Below, piece after piece: positions 54,997 to 61,434 of a DNA stretch of 64,000 nt. Origin of the DNA: Brachybacterium sp. SGAir0954 (GTDB taxonomy: Bacteria > Actinomycetota > Actinomycetes > Actinomycetales > Dermabacteraceae). Every line of letters starts with the position of its first letter. Within the stretch, counting starts at the first letter, position 1. Location of the stretch: the NCBI RefSeq assembly GCF_005490785.1, contig NZ_CP027295.1:1984001-2048000 (forward strand), given 5' to 3'. A program made the translations under genes and the position numbers. Under the pieces are notes generated by a model. That model saw only the letters and a list, made by a program, of their open reading frames with translations, did no database searches and was not told the origin of the DNA.

Positions 54997-55902
54997 TCAG
55001 CCCTTGAGGGCGCCAGCGGCGATGTTCGCGATGAAGTGCCGCGAGCCGATGATGAACACACCGATCAGCGGGAGCACGCTGACGAGCGCTCCCGCCATCA
55101 CCATCCCGTAGTCGGTGAGGTAGAGGGAGTTGAGGTTCTGCAGGGCGGTCTGCAGGGTCTGCCTGCCCGGGTTCACGAGCACGATGAGCGGCCACACGTA
55201 GTCGTTCCAGGCGGTGATGAAGGTGAAGATGCCGAGGAACGCGAGACCGCCGCGCATCATCGGCACGCCGATCCGCCAGTACGTGGTGAAGAACCCGGCC
55301 CCGTCGATGCGCGCGGACTCGACGAGCTCGTGGGGGATCGACCCCGCCGCCATCTGACGCAGCAGGAAGATGCCGAAGGCGTTTGCGGCGCCCGGCACGA
55401 TGAGCGCCTGCAGCGTGCCCACCCAGCCGATCGAGGACATGAGCATGAAGCTCGGCACGAGCGAGAGGCTGCCCGGGATGAGGAACGTCGCGAGCATGAG
55501 CACGAACAGCACGTTGCGGCCCGGGAAGTCGTACTTCGCGAACGCGAAGGCGGCGAGCGAGTCGAAGAACATCACGAGCACGGCGCACAGCGTCGAGACG
55601 ATGATCGTGTTCAGCAGGGCGCCGAGGATGTCGACGCTCGAGAACAGGTTCTGCAGGTTCGTCACGAGCGAGTCGCTGGGCCACAGCCGGGGCGGGTAGC
55701 CGAAGATCTCCCCGGTCGTCGAGGTCGACATGACCGCGAGCCAGTAGAACGGGAAGACGGACAGCAGCACGCCCACGAGGATCAGCACGTGGGTGAGCAC
55801 CTTCTCGACGCGGTCCGCGAGGATCGCGCGGCGGTCGCCCGCGGTGCGGCGCGCGGCGGGGGCGGGGCCCGCGGCGGTGCGGGTGGGGTCGGCGGTGGTC
55901 AT
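54997..55902 (-). CDS. Carbohydrate ABC transporter permease (MalG type)
   Basis: A 301-residue inner-membrane permease with six membrane segments. The EAA-type loop [21 protein letters not shown] contacts the ATPase. Last gene of the three-gene import operon; its ATG overlaps the previous permease stop (ATGA). No ATP-binding subunit is encoded nearby, so a shared MsiK-like ATPase elsewhere is likely, as in other actinobacterial sugar importers. Confidence 0.92.
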
Positions 55903-56894
55903 GAGCGCGCTCCCTTCGAGCGGCGGGCGGCGCGCGGCGTGCGGTCACGCTCGCTGAGCAGGCGCCAGTTGATGATCGCGAAGATCGAGGCCATGACGAA
56001 CAGGGCCCACGCGATCGCGGAGCCGTAGCCGAAGTCGAACTGGGTGAAGGCCTGGTTGTACTGGTAGAGCACGATCGTCATGCCGGCCTCGCCCACGCCG
56101 CCCTCGTTGCCGAGCAGCACCTGCGGCTCCGTGAACAGGCTCAGGCCGCCCACGGTTGAGGTGATGACGGTGAAGAGGATGACCGGTCGCAGCATCGGCA
56201 CGGTGACCCGGGTGAAGATCTGCCAGGTCGAGGCGCCGTCCATCTTCGCGGCGTCGTAGAGGTCCGTGGGGATCGACTGTAGGCCGGCGAGGTAGATGAT
56301 CGCGTTGTAGCCGGTGAAGCGCCAGATCACCATGACGGCGATCGTCACCTTGATGCCCCAGCTGCTCGAGAGCCACGGGATCGAGTCCGCGCCGATCGCC
56401 GTGAGCGCGGAGTTCACGAGGCCGAAGGAGTCGGAGAAGACCGAGCCGAACACGATCGCCATGGCGACCATGGAGGTGACGTTCGGGAGGAAGAACGCGA
56501 CGCGGTAGATGCCGCGCAGGCGGATGTTCTGGTGGAGCAGGAAGGCGATCCCGAGCGCGAGCGCGAGCATCGGCACCGTGGAGAGGAGCCAGATGATGAA
56601 GGTGTTCCCCACGGCGTTCCAGAAGCGGCTGTCCTGGATCAGGTAGGCGTACTGGGCGAGCCCGGCGAACTCGATCTTCCCCATGCCGTCCCAGTTCGTG
56701 AAGGACAGGACGATGGAGAAGAGGATCGGGAACAGGCCGAAGACCAGGAACAGCACGTAGAAGGGGCTGATCGCGAGGTACTGGGGCCAGTGGGCGCGCA
56801 GGGCGCGCCAGCCCTTCTCGTGGCTGCGGGGGACGGCCGCGTCAGTGCGACGGGCTCCGGCGGCGGAGGGGGCGATGGGCGTGGTGGCGCTCAT
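55899..56894 (-). CDS. Carbohydrate ABC transporter permease (MalF type)
   Basis: A 331-residue permease. A basic N-terminal stretch precedes six to seven membrane segments (the first at about 43-64, [20 protein letters not shown]) and the EAA loop [24 protein letters not shown] 56894 overlaps the stop of the binding-protein gene (ATGA). The same frame stays open far upstream to 59756 on the strand opposite other genes, which is shadow. Confidence 0.92.
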
Positions 56895-58177
56895 GAGAGC
56901 ACTCCTCTCTTGGTGAGGACCTTCTTCGCCGCGGCGACGGCGTCGTCCCATGCGGCGTCGGGGTCCTTGCCGGAGGACTCGACGTTGTCGAGCTCGAGGG
57001 CGAAGCTCCCGGAGACGAGGGACTCCCAGGTGGAGATGAAGGAGCTGGGCACGGACTCCGCGGCCTTCGAGAAGAAGGCGAGCGGATCCTGGTCGCCGAA
57101 GAAGTCCCCGGAGTAGCTCAGGGAGTCGAAGGAGGCGGGGCAGGAGGGGAAGAGCTGGACGTCCTCGTAGGCGCGGGCCTGGTTCTCGGGGGTGTTGATC
57201 CAGCGGATGAAGGCCATGGCGGCCTCGGGGTCCTTGCAGGTGCGGGGGATCGCGGCGAAGGAGCCGCCGGAGTTGCCGGGGCGCACGGGCTGCTCGGCGA
57301 GGCGCCACAGACCGGCGGTGTCCGGGGCGGACTCCTGGAGGATCTGCGCCCACCAGGCGGCGTTGATGTGGCCGGCGGTGGACCCGTTGGACCAGGCGGC
57401 GTTCTGGTCGGGGCCGCGGGCGTCGGGGATGCCGGCGGTGATGCCGGCCTCGATCGCGGCGACGGCCGTCGTCCAGGCCTCGCGCACGGCCGAGCCGTCC
57501 TCGAGGTAGAGCGGGGCATCGTCCTCGTCGAGGTAGCGCTCGGGGCTCGCGTTGAGGAACTGGTCGTAGACGTGGCGGCCGGTGTTCACGAGCCTCGCCT
57601 TCGTCGCGCCGAGCAGCTCGGTGCCGAGCGCGATCCAGTCCTCCCACGTGGTGGCCGCGGCGGAGACCTCGTCCGGGGAGGTGGGGAGTCCGGCCTCCTC
57701 GAAGACGTCCTGGCGGTAGAAGAAGCCGGTGGGACCGATGTCGAGCGGGAAGAAGCAGAAGCGTCCCTCCGGGGTGGTGCCGAGGTCCCACTTCCAGGGG
57801 TAGTAGTCGTCCTTGACCTCGTCGGCCCCGAGCTCGGCCATGTCGAGGAACTGGTCCTCGTTGCGGAAGTAGAGGGCGTTGTTGGAGTTGATGTACGTGA
57901 TGTCCGGGATGTAGGCGCCACCGGCGAGGCTCGTGCGCAGCTTCGTGTCGAAGGTGGTGCCGATGACGTCCGCCCGCACGTGGGAGTCCGATCCGGGGAT
58001 GGAGGTCGCGGCCTCCTCGAGCAGCTCGGGGCTCGCCGAGCGGTTCCAGTACCAGAGCACGAGCTCGTGGGGGTCGTCCGAGATCGACGCGTTCGAGCCG
58101 CAGGCGGAGAGGCCTGCGGCGCCGAGGCCCGCGAGTCCTGCGGCCTGCAGCAGCCGTCGTCGTGTGGGTGGTGTCAT
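56891..58177 (-). CDS. Sugar ABC transporter substrate-binding lipoprotein
   Basis: A 428-residue extracellular solute-binding protein (family 1). The N-terminus RRRLLQAAGLAGLGAAGLSAC has a Tat-like start followed by a lipobox with Cys at about 26, so it is anchored outside the membrane. ELVLWYWNR begins the mature lobe; ITYINSN and NTPENQARAYEDV are usual in the family. First gene of the import operon; an operator-like palindrome lies 27 bp upstream. The ATG at 58177 gives the proper signal peptide. Which sugar it binds cannot be told from sequence. Confidence 0.9.
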   Translation of the reverse strand: MTPPTRRRLLQAAGLAGLGAAGLSACGSNASISDDPHELVLWYWNRSASPELLEEAATSIPGSDSHVRADVIGTTFDTKLRTSLAGGAYIPDITYINSNNALYFRNEDQFLDMAELGADEVKDDYYPWKWDLGTTPEGRFCFFPLDIGPTGFFYRQDVFEEAGLPTSPDEVSAAATTWEDWIALGTELLGATKARLVNTGRHVYDQFLNASPERYLDEDDAPLYLEDGSAVREAWTTAVAAIEAGITAGIPDARGPDQNAAWSNGSTAGHINAAWWAQILQESAPDTAGLWRLAEQPVRPGNSGGSFAAIPRTCKDPEAAMAFIRWINTPENQARAYEDVQLFPSCPASFDSLSYSGDFFGDQDPLAFFSKAAESVPSSFISTWESLVSGSFALELDNVESSGKDPDAAWDDAVAAAKKVLTKRGVLS

Positions 58178-58204
58178 GGGTGCCCCTCGTCCTTGAGGTC
58201 CTGC

Positions 58205-58222
58205 GCCGTGAGCGTTCACGGC
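58205..58222. promoter_or_regulatory. LacI-type operator before the ABC operon
   Basis: GCCGTGAGCGTTCACGGC is palindromic except for one central pair. It lies 27 bp before the binding-protein start and shares GTGA-CGTTCAC with the perfect site at 58389-58406. Confidence 0.75.
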
Positions 58223-58388
58223 TGGGAGGACAGTGGCACCGGGGAGGCCGTGTGTCAAGCATCACGTCGCGGATCGACGGGTGTCGGCCGCCCCGGGGGA
58301 GTCGTGGTGAGCGAGAGCGGCCAGGTGAGGCGGGGCCATGGTGGGAAGCGCGTTGCCCCGCCGGCGCATGGCGTGTAGCGTCGTACAA

Positions 58389-58406
58389 GGCGTGAACGTT
58401 CACGCC
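58389..58406. promoter_or_regulatory. LacI-type operator before the fusion dehydrogenase gene
   Basis: GGCGTGAACGTTCACGCC is a perfect 18-bp palindrome with the central CG typical of LacI-family operators. It lies 27 bp before the start of the Gfo/Idh-AKR gene. Confidence 0.85.
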
Positions 58407-58433
58407 CCGACTCCGAAAGACAGTGAGGTCTCC

Positions 58434-60434
58434 ATGAGCACCCGTCTGCGCTGGGCCGTTCTCGGCCCGGGCTCGATCGCCCGCCGCTTCGCCACCCATC
58501 TCCCGCACAGCGAGCTCGGCGAGCTCGCCGGCGTCGGCAGCCGCGACGCCGGCCGTGCCCGCGCCTTCGCGGAGGAGTTCGACCTGGGCGCCGACGCCGT
58601 CATCGGCGACTACGACGAGGTCCTCGCCTCCGACGCGATCGACGCCGTCTACGTCTCGACCGTGCACACCGGCCACGCCCAGCTCGCGATCGCCGCGCTC
58701 CGCGCCGGCAAGCACGTGCTGTGCGAGAAGCCGCTCGCCCCCAACTCCGGCACCGTCATGGCGATCACCGACGCCGCGCGCCGCAGCGGGAAGGTCCTCC
58801 TCGAGGGCTTCATGTACCGCTTCCACCCGCAGACCCTGCGCGTTCTCGAGATCGTCGCCTCCGGCGAGCTCGGCGAGATCACCCACGTGGACGCCTCCTT
58901 CTCCTTCGACACCGGTCGCCGCGAGGGCCGCCTCTTCGGGACCGACGTCGCCGGCGGCGGCATCCTCGACGTGGGCTGCTACCCGCTCTCCCTCGCCCGC
59001 CTCGTGGCCGGCGCCGCCGCCGGGACCCTCGCCGTGGAGCCCAGCTCGCTCACAGGCTCCGGCACCCTCGGCCCGACGGGCGTCGACGAGTGGGCCACCG
59101 CCGAGCTCGTCTTCCCCTCCGGCACCACCGCCTCGCTCCGCACCGGTGTGCGCCTGGCGGACCCGCAGTCCGCGACGATCACCGGCACGCGCGGCGTGCT
59201 GCGCCTCGAGGACCCGTGGGCGCTCACCGATCGGCAGATCATCCGGGTCGACGTGGTGGGGGAGGAGGGCCGCGAGATCGAGATCGAGCCCGCTCACGCC
59301 TACGCGCTCGAGGCCGACGCCCTCGCCCGCGCCGTCGCCGCCGGGCAGAGCGAGGTCCCCGAGCTCACGCTCGCCTTCAGCCACGCCCAGGCGAAGTCGC
59401 TGGACGCCTGGCGCGCACAGCTGGGCCTGCGCTACCCCTTCGAGGCGGACACCGCCGCGATCCCCACCGTCTCCGGTGACCCGCTGCGCGTGCGCGACGG
59501 CGCCGCGATGCCCTACGGGGAGATCCCCGGGGTCGGCAAGAAGGTGTCCCGCCTCGTCATGGGCTGCGACAACCAGGGCGACCTCGCCCACGCCTCCGCG
59601 CTCTTCGACGCCTTCTTCGAGGAGGGCGGCACGACCTTCGACTCCGCGTACATCTACGGCGGCGGGCACCACGAGGTGCTCCTGGGCCAGTGGGTCGCCA
59701 ACCGCGGGGTCCGCGAGGACGTCGTGGTGATCATGAAGGGCGCCCACACCCCGCACTGCGATCCCGAGTCGATCACCCGCCAGCTCGGCGAGTCACTCGA
59801 GCGCCAGCAGACGGACTACGCGGATCTCTACATGATGCACCGCGACAACCTCGACATCCCCGTCGGGGAGTTCGTCGACGTGCTCGACGAGCACGTGCGC
59901 GCCGGTCGCATCCGCGCCTTCGGCGGCTCGAACTGGACCCCCGAGCGCGTCGACGAGGCCAACGCCTACGCCGCCGCGAACGGCAAGCAGGGCTTCAGCC
60001 TCCTGAGCAACCACTTCGGTCTCGCCGAGGCGCTCGACGTGCCGTGGGCCGGCTGCGTGCACGCGACCGACCCGGCGTCCAAGGCCTGGCTCGAGGAGCG
60101 GAGGATCCCGCTGTTCCCGTGGTCCTCGCAGGCCCGCGGGTTCTTCACGGGGCGCGCCCGCAAGGACGACCTCTCCGACGCGGAGCTCGTGCGCTGCTAC
60201 TACTCCGACGAGAACTTCGAGCGCCTCGACCGCGCCGGGTCCCTCGCCGCCGAGCTCGGCGTGCCGACCACCGCGGTCGCCCTCGCCTACGTGCTCGCGC
60301 AGCCCTTCCCCACCTTCCCGCTGTTCGGGCCCCGCTCGATCGAGGAGATGCGCTCCTCGATGACAGGCCTGTCGATCTCGCTCACCCCCGAGCAGACGGC
60401 ATGGCTGGACCTGCGCTCCGACCGGCCGGCGTGA
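58434..60434 (+). CDS. Gfo/Idh/MocA oxidoreductase fused to aldo/keto reductase
   Basis: A 666-residue two-domain protein. Residues 1 to ~340 are an NAD(P)-dependent sugar oxidoreductase: GPGSIA (11-16) binds the nucleotide, EKP (98-100) carries the catalytic Lys, and DVGCYPLSLAR is the second-domain motif. After a short linker (AAIPTVSGDPLRV), residues ~360-666 are an aldo/keto reductase with the full tetrad D403, Y408, K435 and H469. Both halves appear active. The chain could oxidise and reduce successive intermediates of an imported sugar, without release. ATG 58434 follows GAGG; the frame upstream to 58338 crosses the operator and is not used. The gene is under an operator and 13 bp before lacI. 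Confidence 0.88.
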   Translation: MSTRLRWAVLGPGSIARRFATHLPHSELGELAGVGSRDAGRARAFAEEFDLGADAVIGDYDEVLASDAIDAVYVSTVHTGHAQLAIAALRAGKHVLCEKPLAPNSGTVMAITDAARRSGKVLLEGFMYRFHPQTLRVLEIVASGELGEITHVDASFSFDTGRREGRLFGTDVAGGGILDVGCYPLSLARLVAGAAAGTLAVEPSSLTGSGTLGPTGVDEWATAELVFPSGTTASLRTGVRLADPQSATITGTRGVLRLEDPWALTDRQIIRVDVVGEEGREIEIEPAHAYALEADALARAVAAGQSEVPELTLAFSHAQAKSLDAWRAQLGLRYPFEADTAAIPTVSGDPLRVRDGAAMPYGEIPGVGKKVSRLVMGCDNQGDLAHASALFDAFFEEGGTTFDSAYIYGGGHHEVLLGQWVANRGVREDVVVIMKGAHTPHCDPESITRQLGESLERQQTDYADLYMMHRDNLDIPVGEFVDVLDEHVRAGRIRAFGGSNWTPERVDEANAYAAANGKQGFSLLSNHFGLAEALDVPWAGCVHATDPASKAWLEERRIPLFPWSSQARGFFTGRARKDDLSDAELVRCYYSDENFERLDRAGSLAAELGVPTTAVALAYVLAQPFPTFPLFGPRSIEEMRSSMTGLSISLTPEQTAWLDLRSDRPA

Positions 60435-60447
60435 CAGACTCCCGCGC

Positions 60448-61434
60448 ATGACGCAGCAGGACAGCAGCCCCGGCGCGCGCCGGGCGACGATCATCGACGT
60501 CGCGGCGCGCGCCGGGGTCTCCCGGCAGACGGTCTCCCGGGCCATCAACGACATGCCGGGGATCTCCACGAGCACCCGGGAGCGCGTGCTCGCGGCCGCC
60601 GAGGAGCTCCACTACCGCCCCTCGCGGTTCGGCCGGGGTCTGGTGAGCGCGGGACCGCCCACGCTCGGCCTGCTCGTGGACGACCTCGCCAACGCCTTCT
60701 TCCCGGAGATGGCCCGCGCGATGATCCGCGCCGCCTCCGAGCGCGGCTGGACCGTGCTCGTCGCCGAGACCGGCGGCGCCGAGGACCCGGAGGAGGTGGG
60801 CCGCGACCTCGCACGCCGTGTCGACGCGCTCGTGGGCTACGGCCTGCCGCAGCGCACGGGGGACGCCGTCCCGGAGCGGATGCCGATCCTCCAGCTCGAT
60901 GGGCCGCGCGCGGGTGATCGTCCGGGCGTGCTCTTCACGCTGGACCCCGCGCTCGAGGAGCTCGCCGCGCACCTGCGCTCCCAGGGGGTGCGCCGCGCCG
61001 CCCTCCTGGACAACGACCTCACCGGCCCCTCCGATCGCGCGCGCCGCGTCCGGGAGGGGCTCGCCGGGGTGCTCGAGGAGCTCGAGGTCGTGCCGATGGT
61101 GCCGGACGGTGTCCGGGCGCAGGTCGACGCTGCGATGGCCGGGTCCCCGGACCTCCTCATCGGATGGAACGACGCGCACGCCCTCGCGGCGCTCAAGGAG
61201 CTCCGGTCGCGCGGCGTCGCCGTCCCCGAGCAGGTGCGTGTCATGGGCATCGACGGCCTCGGGATCGGCACGCTCGTCACCCCGGAGCTGACGAGCCTCG
61301 GCGTGGACCTCGAGGCCATGGCCCGCGAGGCGGTGGACCTCGTGGACGGCATGTTCTCCGGGGCGCTGCCGCTGCAGGGCGAGCGGTCCCGGCGCGAGCT
61401 GCCCTACCGGCTCATCCGCCGCGGCTCCGCCTGA
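60448..61434 (+). CDS. LacI-family transcriptional regulator
   Basis: A 328-residue regulator. The N-terminal helix-turn-helix IIDVAARAGVSRQTVSRAIN and hinge helix HYRPSRFGRGL lead to a periplasmic-binding-like effector domain (about 68-328; TLGLLVDDLANAFFPEM). It follows the fusion gene after 13 bp, so it is probably co-transcribed with it and autoregulated. It is the natural ligand of the two palindromes upstream. The effector is probably the imported sugar or its first metabolite. Confidence 0.92.
   Translation: MTQQDSSPGARRATIIDVAARAGVSRQTVSRAINDMPGISTSTRERVLAAAEELHYRPSRFGRGLVSAGPPTLGLLVDDLANAFFPEMARAMIRAASERGWTVLVAETGGAEDPEEVGRDLARRVDALVGYGLPQRTGDAVPERMPILQLDGPRAGDRPGVLFTLDPALEELAAHLRSQGVRRAALLDNDLTGPSDRARRVREGLAGVLEELEVVPMVPDGVRAQVDAAMAGSPDLLIGWNDAHALAALKELRSRGVAVPEQVRVMGIDGLGIGTLVTPELTSLGVDLEAMAREAVDLVDGMFSGALPLQGERSRRELPYRLIRRGSA

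Follow-up and report, generated by a model that had tools for sequence, protein, structure and literature searches.

The window analysed here, a stretch of 64,000 nucleotides from the 3.41 Mb genome of Brachybacterium sp. SGAir0954, carries a gene in which two oxidoreductases, one of the Gfo/Idh/MocA type and one aldo/keto reductase (AKR), are joined in a single chain, next to the genes of a sugar importer and a LacI-family regulator. Its open reading frame (ORF) contains no internal stop, and its parts, in window coordinates, are the following:

58434..60434, + strand: fused Gfo/Idh/MocA - AKR gene, 666 amino acids, ATG to TGA
58446..58808, + strand: Gfo/Idh NAD(P)-binding domain (Pfam), residues 5-125, with the K99 codon at 58728-58730
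58839..59201, + strand: Gfo/Idh C-terminal domain (Pfam C3), residues 136-256, with the codons of D179 at 58968-58970 and Y183 at 58980-58982
59439..59504, + strand: linker, residues 336-357 (22 residues as measured)
59508..60431, + strand: AKR half, residues 359-666, starting at M359, with D403, Y408, K435 and H469

The two halves and their conservation

By profile, fold and motif the fused protein is a member of both the Gfo/Idh/MocA and the aldo/keto reductase superfamilies. The Pfam profiles GFO_IDH_MocA (PF01408; residues 5-125, 82.6 bits, cut-off 24), GFO_IDH_MocA_C3 (PF22725; residues 136-256, 63.6 bits, cut-off 27) and Aldo_ket_red (PF00248; residues 383-658, 154.2 bits, cut-off 24) all match it. 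Scores for the NCBIfam equivalogs IolG inositol 2-dehydrogenase (TIGR04380, 86 against a cut-off of 355 bits), levoglucosan dehydrogenase (NF052479, 63 against 650) and glycoside 3-dehydrogenase BT_2158 (NF058561, 35.4 against 750) are far below the cut-offs, which places the protein outside those named enzymes.

The AlphaFold2 model (26 fused proteins) has a whole-chain mean predicted local distance difference test score (pLDDT) of 92.7 and a predicted template modelling score (pTM) of 0.91, so that the two domains are placed with confidence in this prediction. For the Gfo/Idh half the best fold matches are dimeric dihydrodiol dehydrogenase (2o48) at Z 43.1, aldose-aldose oxidoreductase at 40.1, the sugar 3-ketoreductase KijD10 at 39.7 and glucose-fructose oxidoreductase (GFOR) at 38.9. 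Over approximately residues 1-337 the fold is shared with 2o48, 5a02 (aldose-aldose oxidoreductase), 3rc1 (KijD10) and 1h6d (GFOR) at Z 43.1-38.5 and a root mean square deviation of 1.6-2.1 Å, as are the Lys-Tyr pair and, by sequence, an NADP-type site, but these proteins are 22-29% identical to it, and none of their structures, all of single-domain enzymes, includes an AKR. In the fused protein Lys and Tyr stand 84 residues apart (K99/Y183), the same spacing as for K102/Y186 in KijD10, as identified by PDB titles. The AKR half, over residues 357-663, has the barrel fold of DepB (8hwn, Z 34.1), 7utf (33.9) and Tas (1lqa, 33.1), and AKRtyl (8jwk) is its best sequence match; these four are 25-30% identical and stand-alone, none being joined to a Gfo/Idh protein. 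Each of the fold-search rows listed (50 per search) spans one half and none spans both, with an aligner that covers long models poorly. We take E98-K99-P100 to be the EKP motif of Gfo/Idh enzymes and D403, Y408, K435 and H469 to be the Asp-Tyr-Lys-His tetrad of AKRs, which is intact here as in DepB, 7utf, AKRtyl and Tas, while D179 and Y183, together with D403, K435 and H469, are presumably the further usual catalytic residues.

We examined 89 loci, 80 of which hold the fusion in a single frame, and the 68 distinct proteins among them were used for the conservation counts. The excluded loci are L011, L013 and L097 (the same Phytoactinopolyspora frame break seen three times), L012 (a lone Gfo/Idh), L094 (at a contig edge), L072 (which failed the end rule only) and the frame-broken L086 (Brachybacterium Z12), L092 (Curtobacterium) and L078 (Arenivirga, near residue 100). 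The frame-broken fusion copies (L086/L138, L092, L011/L097/L136 and L078) may reflect either sequencing error or decay. K99, D179, Y183, D403, Y408, K435 and H469 are invariant in 68/68 proteins, and so is E98-K99-P100. In a wider set of 42 fused proteins (28 in common with the 68, and 14 from the phylum of an Opitutaceae genome) K99, D179, Y183 and D403 are kept in 42/42 and Y408, K435 and H469 in 41/42. The exception is L193 (7031-9031), which has its Gfo/Idh residues intact and the AKR Tyr, Lys and His changed to C, R and Q; its AKR half is probably dead or changed. All seven residues are also kept in 7/7 inspected plasmid copies from rhizobia and Phyllobacterium. The AKR half is the more conserved one, with a median identity of 0.740 versus 0.573 for the Gfo/Idh half and a higher identity in 2243 of 2278 pairs, and the rate of non-synonymous substitution is far under the synonymous rate for both halves among the close pairs listed. 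The linker is 22 residues long in 29/42 proteins and ranges from 19 to 38. S36, in G35-S36-R37 without an acidic residue after strand 2, is found in 65/68 proteins and R634 in 66/68, which suggests that both halves use NADP(H), under what we assume to be the usual motif rule for an NADP(H)-type site.

The original prediction, made from the letters of the window, was of two oxidoreductases of unrelated fold, both with intact active sites, in one chain at a sugar locus, and Pfam, residue conservation and AlphaFold2 bear it out; its choice of K99 and Y408 was right. It also foresaw that a frameshift or an inactive half would speak against it. There is no break in the window's genome and the join is in one frame at 80/89 loci, and a catalytic residue is lost in none of the 68 proteins, the distant L193 alone being without three of the four AKR residues. 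An assembly artefact was rejected on the grounds of these single-frame loci, the conserved residues and the confident whole-chain model. We found no biochemical description of a Gfo/Idh-AKR fusion in the literature covered, which left most subscription papers outside its scope, in agreement with what had been supposed.

Distribution and origin of the fusion

In the family of the host 32 of 47 genomes matched the fusion, 31 of the 38 within the genus and one of the nine outside it, while a sample of the class gave matches in 4/296 genomes: the host's own, one fused, one frame-broken and one with a lone Gfo/Idh. Among relatives outside the genus the fusion is thus rare. A scan of genome contigs, from which the best 80 loci were taken, returned 55 loci of the fusion family (L043-L097) and 25 that match the Gfo/Idh half only. 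The actinobacterial hosts of the 55 include Brachybacterium, Curtobacterium, Microlunatus, Microbacterium, Kineococcus, Humibacter, Occultella and others, and the distant hosts Opitutaceae, Kiritimatiellales and Aureimonas. The survey of fused and unfused homologues that had been proposed thus revealed fused copies in distant phyla, in Verrucomicrobiota and Kiritimatiellota as well as in rhizobia, and also unfused pairs of the two genes. Matches were found in 46 of 240 genomes from the phylum of the Opitutaceae genome, scored with five candidates per genome. Judged by the listed ranges, 15 of them have a fused chain of full length, two a partial match across both halves, 27 the Gfo/Idh half only and two the AKR half only. 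Among plasmid records 194 of 72,556 match, 123 from Rhizobium and 65 from Sinorhizobium, and a full-length fused copy lies on pSymA of the laboratory strain Sinorhizobium meliloti 1021, at ~1289.1-1291.1 kb. Two full fused copies per genome were seen in G323 (C37, C39), G856 (C12, C160) and G657 (C96, C85). The plasmid records name the fused chain 'aldo/keto reductase', 'Gfo/Idh/MocA family oxidoreductase' or 'oxidoreductase protein', and this naming by one half only conceals a conserved two-headed enzyme that many soil, plant-associated and rhizobial bacteria have.

Unfused tandem Gfo/Idh and AKR genes in the same order were found in three genomes of one family (L131-L133) and on a contig of a metagenome-assembled genome (L199). 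The L131-L133 proteins are 34-35% identical to the fused protein in the Gfo/Idh half and 38-45% in the AKR half. In L132 the two genes overlap as GTGA and the AKR gene starts at the position of M359, with which the AKR starts of the unfused pairs align. These pairs differ from the fusion in being two genes and, at L131-L133, in lying in keto-sugar-type clusters rather than in importer divergons. The L131-L133 clusters hold several Gfo/Idh genes, AP_endonuc_2, ThuA and a further AKR (assigned mostly by eye, a sample by Pfam), with a GH38 gene in L132 (Pfam) and a GH1-like gene in L133 (by eye), and look like uncharacterised keto-sugar pathways.

Trees were made from selected rows, 52 for Gfo/Idh and 47 for AKR; backbone support is weak in both (46/64 and 48/36), and L193 forms a long branch. 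A single branch of the AKR tree (98/90) separates fused from unfused rows. In the Gfo/Idh tree some fused clades also contain lone proteins: L130 groups with Kineococcus (98/82), L194 with fused L182 (100/100) and L197 with fused L190 (100/99). The simplest reading of these sequences is that a gene pair was fused and that the AKR half was then lost several times, but the weak backbones would also allow repeated fusion.

The importer divergon and its operator

The neighbourhood of the fusion contains the following features:

54997..55902, - strand: ABC permease B (Pfam)
55899..56894, - strand: ABC permease A (Pfam)
56891..58177, - strand: sugar ABC solute-binding protein (Pfam; start inferred)
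58207..58220: second putative operator CGTGAGCGTTCACG, one mismatch, ~30 bp before the solute-binding protein gene
58389..58406: perfect 18-bp palindrome with putative operator CGTGAACGTTCACG at 58391-58404, before the fusion
60448..61434, + strand: LacI-family regulator gene, 13 bp 3' of the fusion

What had been called a sugar operon does contain a sugar importer and lacI, and in its arrangement is a divergon, with the two permeases and the solute-binding protein on the - strand and the fusion and lacI on the + strand. The nearest solved relatives of the solute-binding protein are the cellobiose-binding 8bfy, and 5ixp. No other catabolic enzyme was seen in the importer divergon beyond the fusion. 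TGAACGTTCA is found once in the genome. An open frame of 1285 codons on the - strand (55899-59756), running from permease A through the fusion antisense, is a high-GC artefact and no gene.

Across 56 loci, with ORFs called by a codon-usage method that gives approximate starts, the fusion has lacI next to it in 46; an importer is adjacent in 27, including the two Aureimonas loci with their different layout. A predicted operator (at least 13 of 14 positions) precedes the fusion at 43/46 loci with lacI versus 0/10 without it. The divergent importer cassette is common to Brachybacterium, Curtobacterium and Microlunatus, in the latter two away from rho and prfA. All 12 Curtobacterium genomes have two operator sites (two close variants), both just 5' of the fusion and nowhere else, and at L056 and L061 the importer is absent from the fusion locus. 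In Humibacter an exact operator lies at another place in the genome. It is flanked by a lacI paralogue, 41% identical to the lacI of the window, and by an importer that shares 55-70% identity with the one in the window. The rhizobial operons viewed, in a plasmid gene table that is incomplete, have the layout solute-binding protein, permease(s), ATPase and fusion behind a helix-turn-helix regulator or, in S. meliloti ml21, one of the ROK family; in the six annotated plasmid records viewed the fusion ends the importer operon or is its last transporter-linked gene. Taken together, the actinobacterial, Aureimonas and rhizobial layouts indicate that the fusion recurs beside sugar importers under LacI, AraC-type and ROK regulators.

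Allowing one mismatch at most, the window's genome has three operator matches: the two sites of the divergon and a third that precedes a GH2 gene by ~36 bp. The protein of this gene has the domain make-up of LacZ; a relative of it in the genus matched beta-galactosidase structures at 1e-185 and also LacZ-type NCBIfam models, the latter with scores under their cut-offs. The operator stands before the GH2 gene in 24 of 25 fusion-positive Brachybacterium genomes, the window's included, versus one of five fusion-negative ones (Fisher p 0.0009, uncorrected for relatedness), as counted in 30 of 36 matching genomes, those with the locus returned, with fusion status from the family survey. A DUF3375 gene (PF11855; L281:6512-8038, ~1266.5-1268.0 kb in the host's own genome), presumably JetA-like, is divergent to the beta-galactosidase gene, and the gap with the operator is common to both. 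Outside Brachybacterium a link to beta-galactosidase was seen in Aureimonas only, where importer, fusion and a GH42 beta-galactosidase gene 3' of it are accompanied by an AraC-type gene and no LacI. GH4 genes are found in the vicinity of the fusion in Humibacter, on two Phyllobacterium plasmids and in Microbacterium STN6, the STN6 gene scoring over the NCBIfam cut-off for alpha-galactosidase.

Possible function of the two-headed enzyme

With a beta-galactosidase gene preceded by the operator of the neighbouring LacI, the lead is a galactoside rather than an inositol. Of the sugars and inositols suggested as substrates the sugar part can thus be retained and narrowed, while inositol was rejected as the lead, since the IolG score is low and neither the divergon nor the operator sites examined showed an inositol gene. 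From these genomic contexts, the fusion is almost certainly a real, dedicated sugar-catabolic enzyme and, usually together with its importer, probably a catabolic module, for a galactoside; for Brachybacterium we somewhat favour a galactoside or galactose-derived substrate. Our best explanation as a whole, in which the chain is a catabolic enzyme dedicated to a galactoside-type sugar that is imported and its halves are coupled, is offered tentatively. A net redox-neutral coupling of the halves, as originally predicted, is by itself plausible though a little short of an even chance; it is compatible with two halves that both look NADP(H)-type and with the fusion as the sole catabolic enzyme seen at the importer locus. 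What we consider new here is the putative regulon, which unites the importer and the two-headed oxidoreductase with a LacI whose operator can be read and, in Brachybacterium, with a beta-galactosidase. It would resemble Lac systems, as we take them to be, in combining an importer, LacI-type control and a LacZ-type enzyme, but its core is an oxidoreductase and its lacZ is unlinked, joined through the operator in Brachybacterium only.

On this explanation, the sugar or a derivative of it would cause LacI to release the divergon, the importer would carry the sugar into the cell, and in Brachybacterium the LacZ-type beta-galactosidase under the same operator would cleave it before or after the redox step. 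Less surely, the Gfo/Idh half might oxidise a ring or C1 hydroxyl with NADP+, the AKR half might reduce a carbonyl of the product or of a partner sugar with the NADPH formed, and the chain might yield an epimer or isomer for ordinary kinases at zero net redox cost. A more daring and rather doubtful version is a single-chain epimerase/isomerase of free sugars, with oxidation in one domain and reduction in the other, NADP(H) and perhaps a keto intermediate being passed between them; together with the importer it would make a common sugar from an unusual galactoside or galactose derivative and would be a hydrolase- and kinase-independent entry in actinobacteria, Verrucomicrobiota and rhizobia. 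A precedent for the redox balance is the levoglucosan route of Bacillus smithii (LgdA-LgdC), in which, according to PMC7676230, a Gfo/Idh oxidation is followed by a later reduction with zero net redox change, but by four separate enzymes, with elimination and hydration in between and without an AKR. LgdC is also a Gfo/Idh protein (PMC10066097), and the word 'aldo' occurs in the accessible text of neither PMC10066097 nor PMC10628242. Since the enzyme often has a regulator with a readable operator, as well as an importer, beside it, its substrate should be findable by induction, and if the halves do pass NADP(H) to each other the enzyme would be a natural self-recycling sugar converter, useful for rare-sugar synthesis.

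A number of observations weigh against this explanation. The importer is missing beside the fusion at the Brachybacterium loci L044, L045, L046, L049, L052 and L086, and most verrucomicrobial copies viewed have neither importer nor lacI, other contexts there being KDPG aldolase with AP_endonuc_2 and Gfo/Idh (L190) and GH94 (L192). Exact or near operators also occur at loci for arabinose (L226) and with GH51 (L229) and at two further importer loci (L231, L232), where the LacI proteins, if present, are ~28-31% identical to the window's. The motif is therefore not private to the window's LacI, and LacI families apparently share an operator word (L226, L229). The operator-based lacZ link is confined to Brachybacterium, and even there the fusion-negative G301 keeps the lacZ operator, the fusion-positive G314 is without it, and the absence of the fusion from G327 is unsure in an assembly that is 84% complete. 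In the 12 Curtobacterium genomes no operator site was found away from the fusion. Eight extra one-mismatch sites in Kineococcus, Microlunatus, Microbacterium and Phytoactinopolyspora, a background-like subset of further matches, lie inside ORFs (five) or beside unrelated genes (three). Domains of the galK type are present in 37/38 genomes of the genus, in a search for galK-type domains with galT and galE outside it, so that free galactose probably already has a Leloir entry; a Leloir bypass, converting galactose to glucose at C4, was weakened as a candidate by this result. As for the coupling, lone Gfo/Idh proteins stand beside fused L066, L182 and L190 in the Gfo/Idh tree, and in the 13 lone-Gfo/Idh genomes searched, of 28 seen, every AKR stays at or below 35% identity to the AKR half, 10/13 being without any AKR match at 1e-15. 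Repeated AKR loss and the degenerate L193 imply that the Gfo/Idh reaction can do without the AKR, and coupling of the halves seems not to be obligatory everywhere.

Of the alternatives, the strongest is salvage of keto-sugars, in which both halves would be reductases and the importer would take up an oxidised galactoside, for example 3'-ketolactose from neighbouring bacteria; one half would reduce the ring ketone and the other a second carbonyl, the beta-galactosidase would then cleave the product, and there would be no redox neutrality. It would account for the fold of the Gfo/Idh half, which is near that of the 3-ketoreductase KijD10 with the equal Lys-Tyr spacing, and for a lactose-type enzyme within the putative regulon. 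The unfused pairs cluster with ThuA, AP_endonuc_2 and several Gfo/Idh genes, which is a gene mix known from 3-keto-sugar pathways (PMC7676230 for levoglucosan, PMC10066097 for the family names), and PMC9007349 calls it unknown what becomes of 3-ketogalactose when bacteria use lactose, with reduction to a hexose as a possibility. Two reductases, however, demand two different carbonyls or two stereochemical outcomes, and no enzyme that forms keto-sugars was seen in the divergon. We regard this alternative as unlikely.

Next comes a loose coupling, in which the halves are joined mainly for co-expression and assembly and share no intermediate, the Gfo/Idh half being the catabolic enzyme and the AKR a side enzyme for NADPH recycling or removal of reactive carbonyls. 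The apparent repeated loss of the AKR, its degeneration in L193 and an ancestral state like that of coupled neighbour genes, with the GTGA overlap of L132, are all consistent with it. On the other hand, one would not expect of a side enzyme that it is the better conserved half with its residues kept in 68/68 proteins, nor does the linker length, 22 residues in most of the wider set, favour it, and we rate it only slightly below keto-sugar salvage. Improbable is a disproportionation of the GFOR or aldose-aldose oxidoreductase kind, carried out by the Gfo/Idh half alone with tightly held NADP, to which the AKR would be an added aldose reductase. In favour of it, GFOR and aldose-aldose oxidoreductase rank high among the fold matches, and the position of Tyr183 is presumably held by His in inositol-type enzymes. 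Strand 1 of the model already begins at residue 5 (residues 5-10, in a chain that begins MSTRLRW), so that the N-terminal arm and secretion signal, which we take to mark GFOR precursors, are absent from the fused protein; this alternative also leaves the reason for adding an AKR unexplained.

That the two halves are produced, or function, separately, through an internal start or a frameshift, is extremely improbable: the few relatives with broken frames and an ancestral AKR start at M359 speak for it, while the lack of a Shine-Dalgarno core before M359 in 67/68 proteins, the replacement of this residue in distant copies and the single confident whole-chain model speak against it. M359 is the likeliest candidate for an internal start, an event that the original prediction had also listed against itself, because it has the same position as the start of the unfused AKR genes. 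It is Met in 68/68 fused proteins and in 37/42 of the wider set (I in 5/42), but I or V in 7/7 plasmid copies of rhizobia and Phyllobacterium, and a Shine-Dalgarno core was observed ahead of it in 1/68, against 2.7 expected from random codons. An internal start was rejected on these statistics, the join in one frame and the whole-chain model, and M359 would appear to be the relic of a start that is no longer used.

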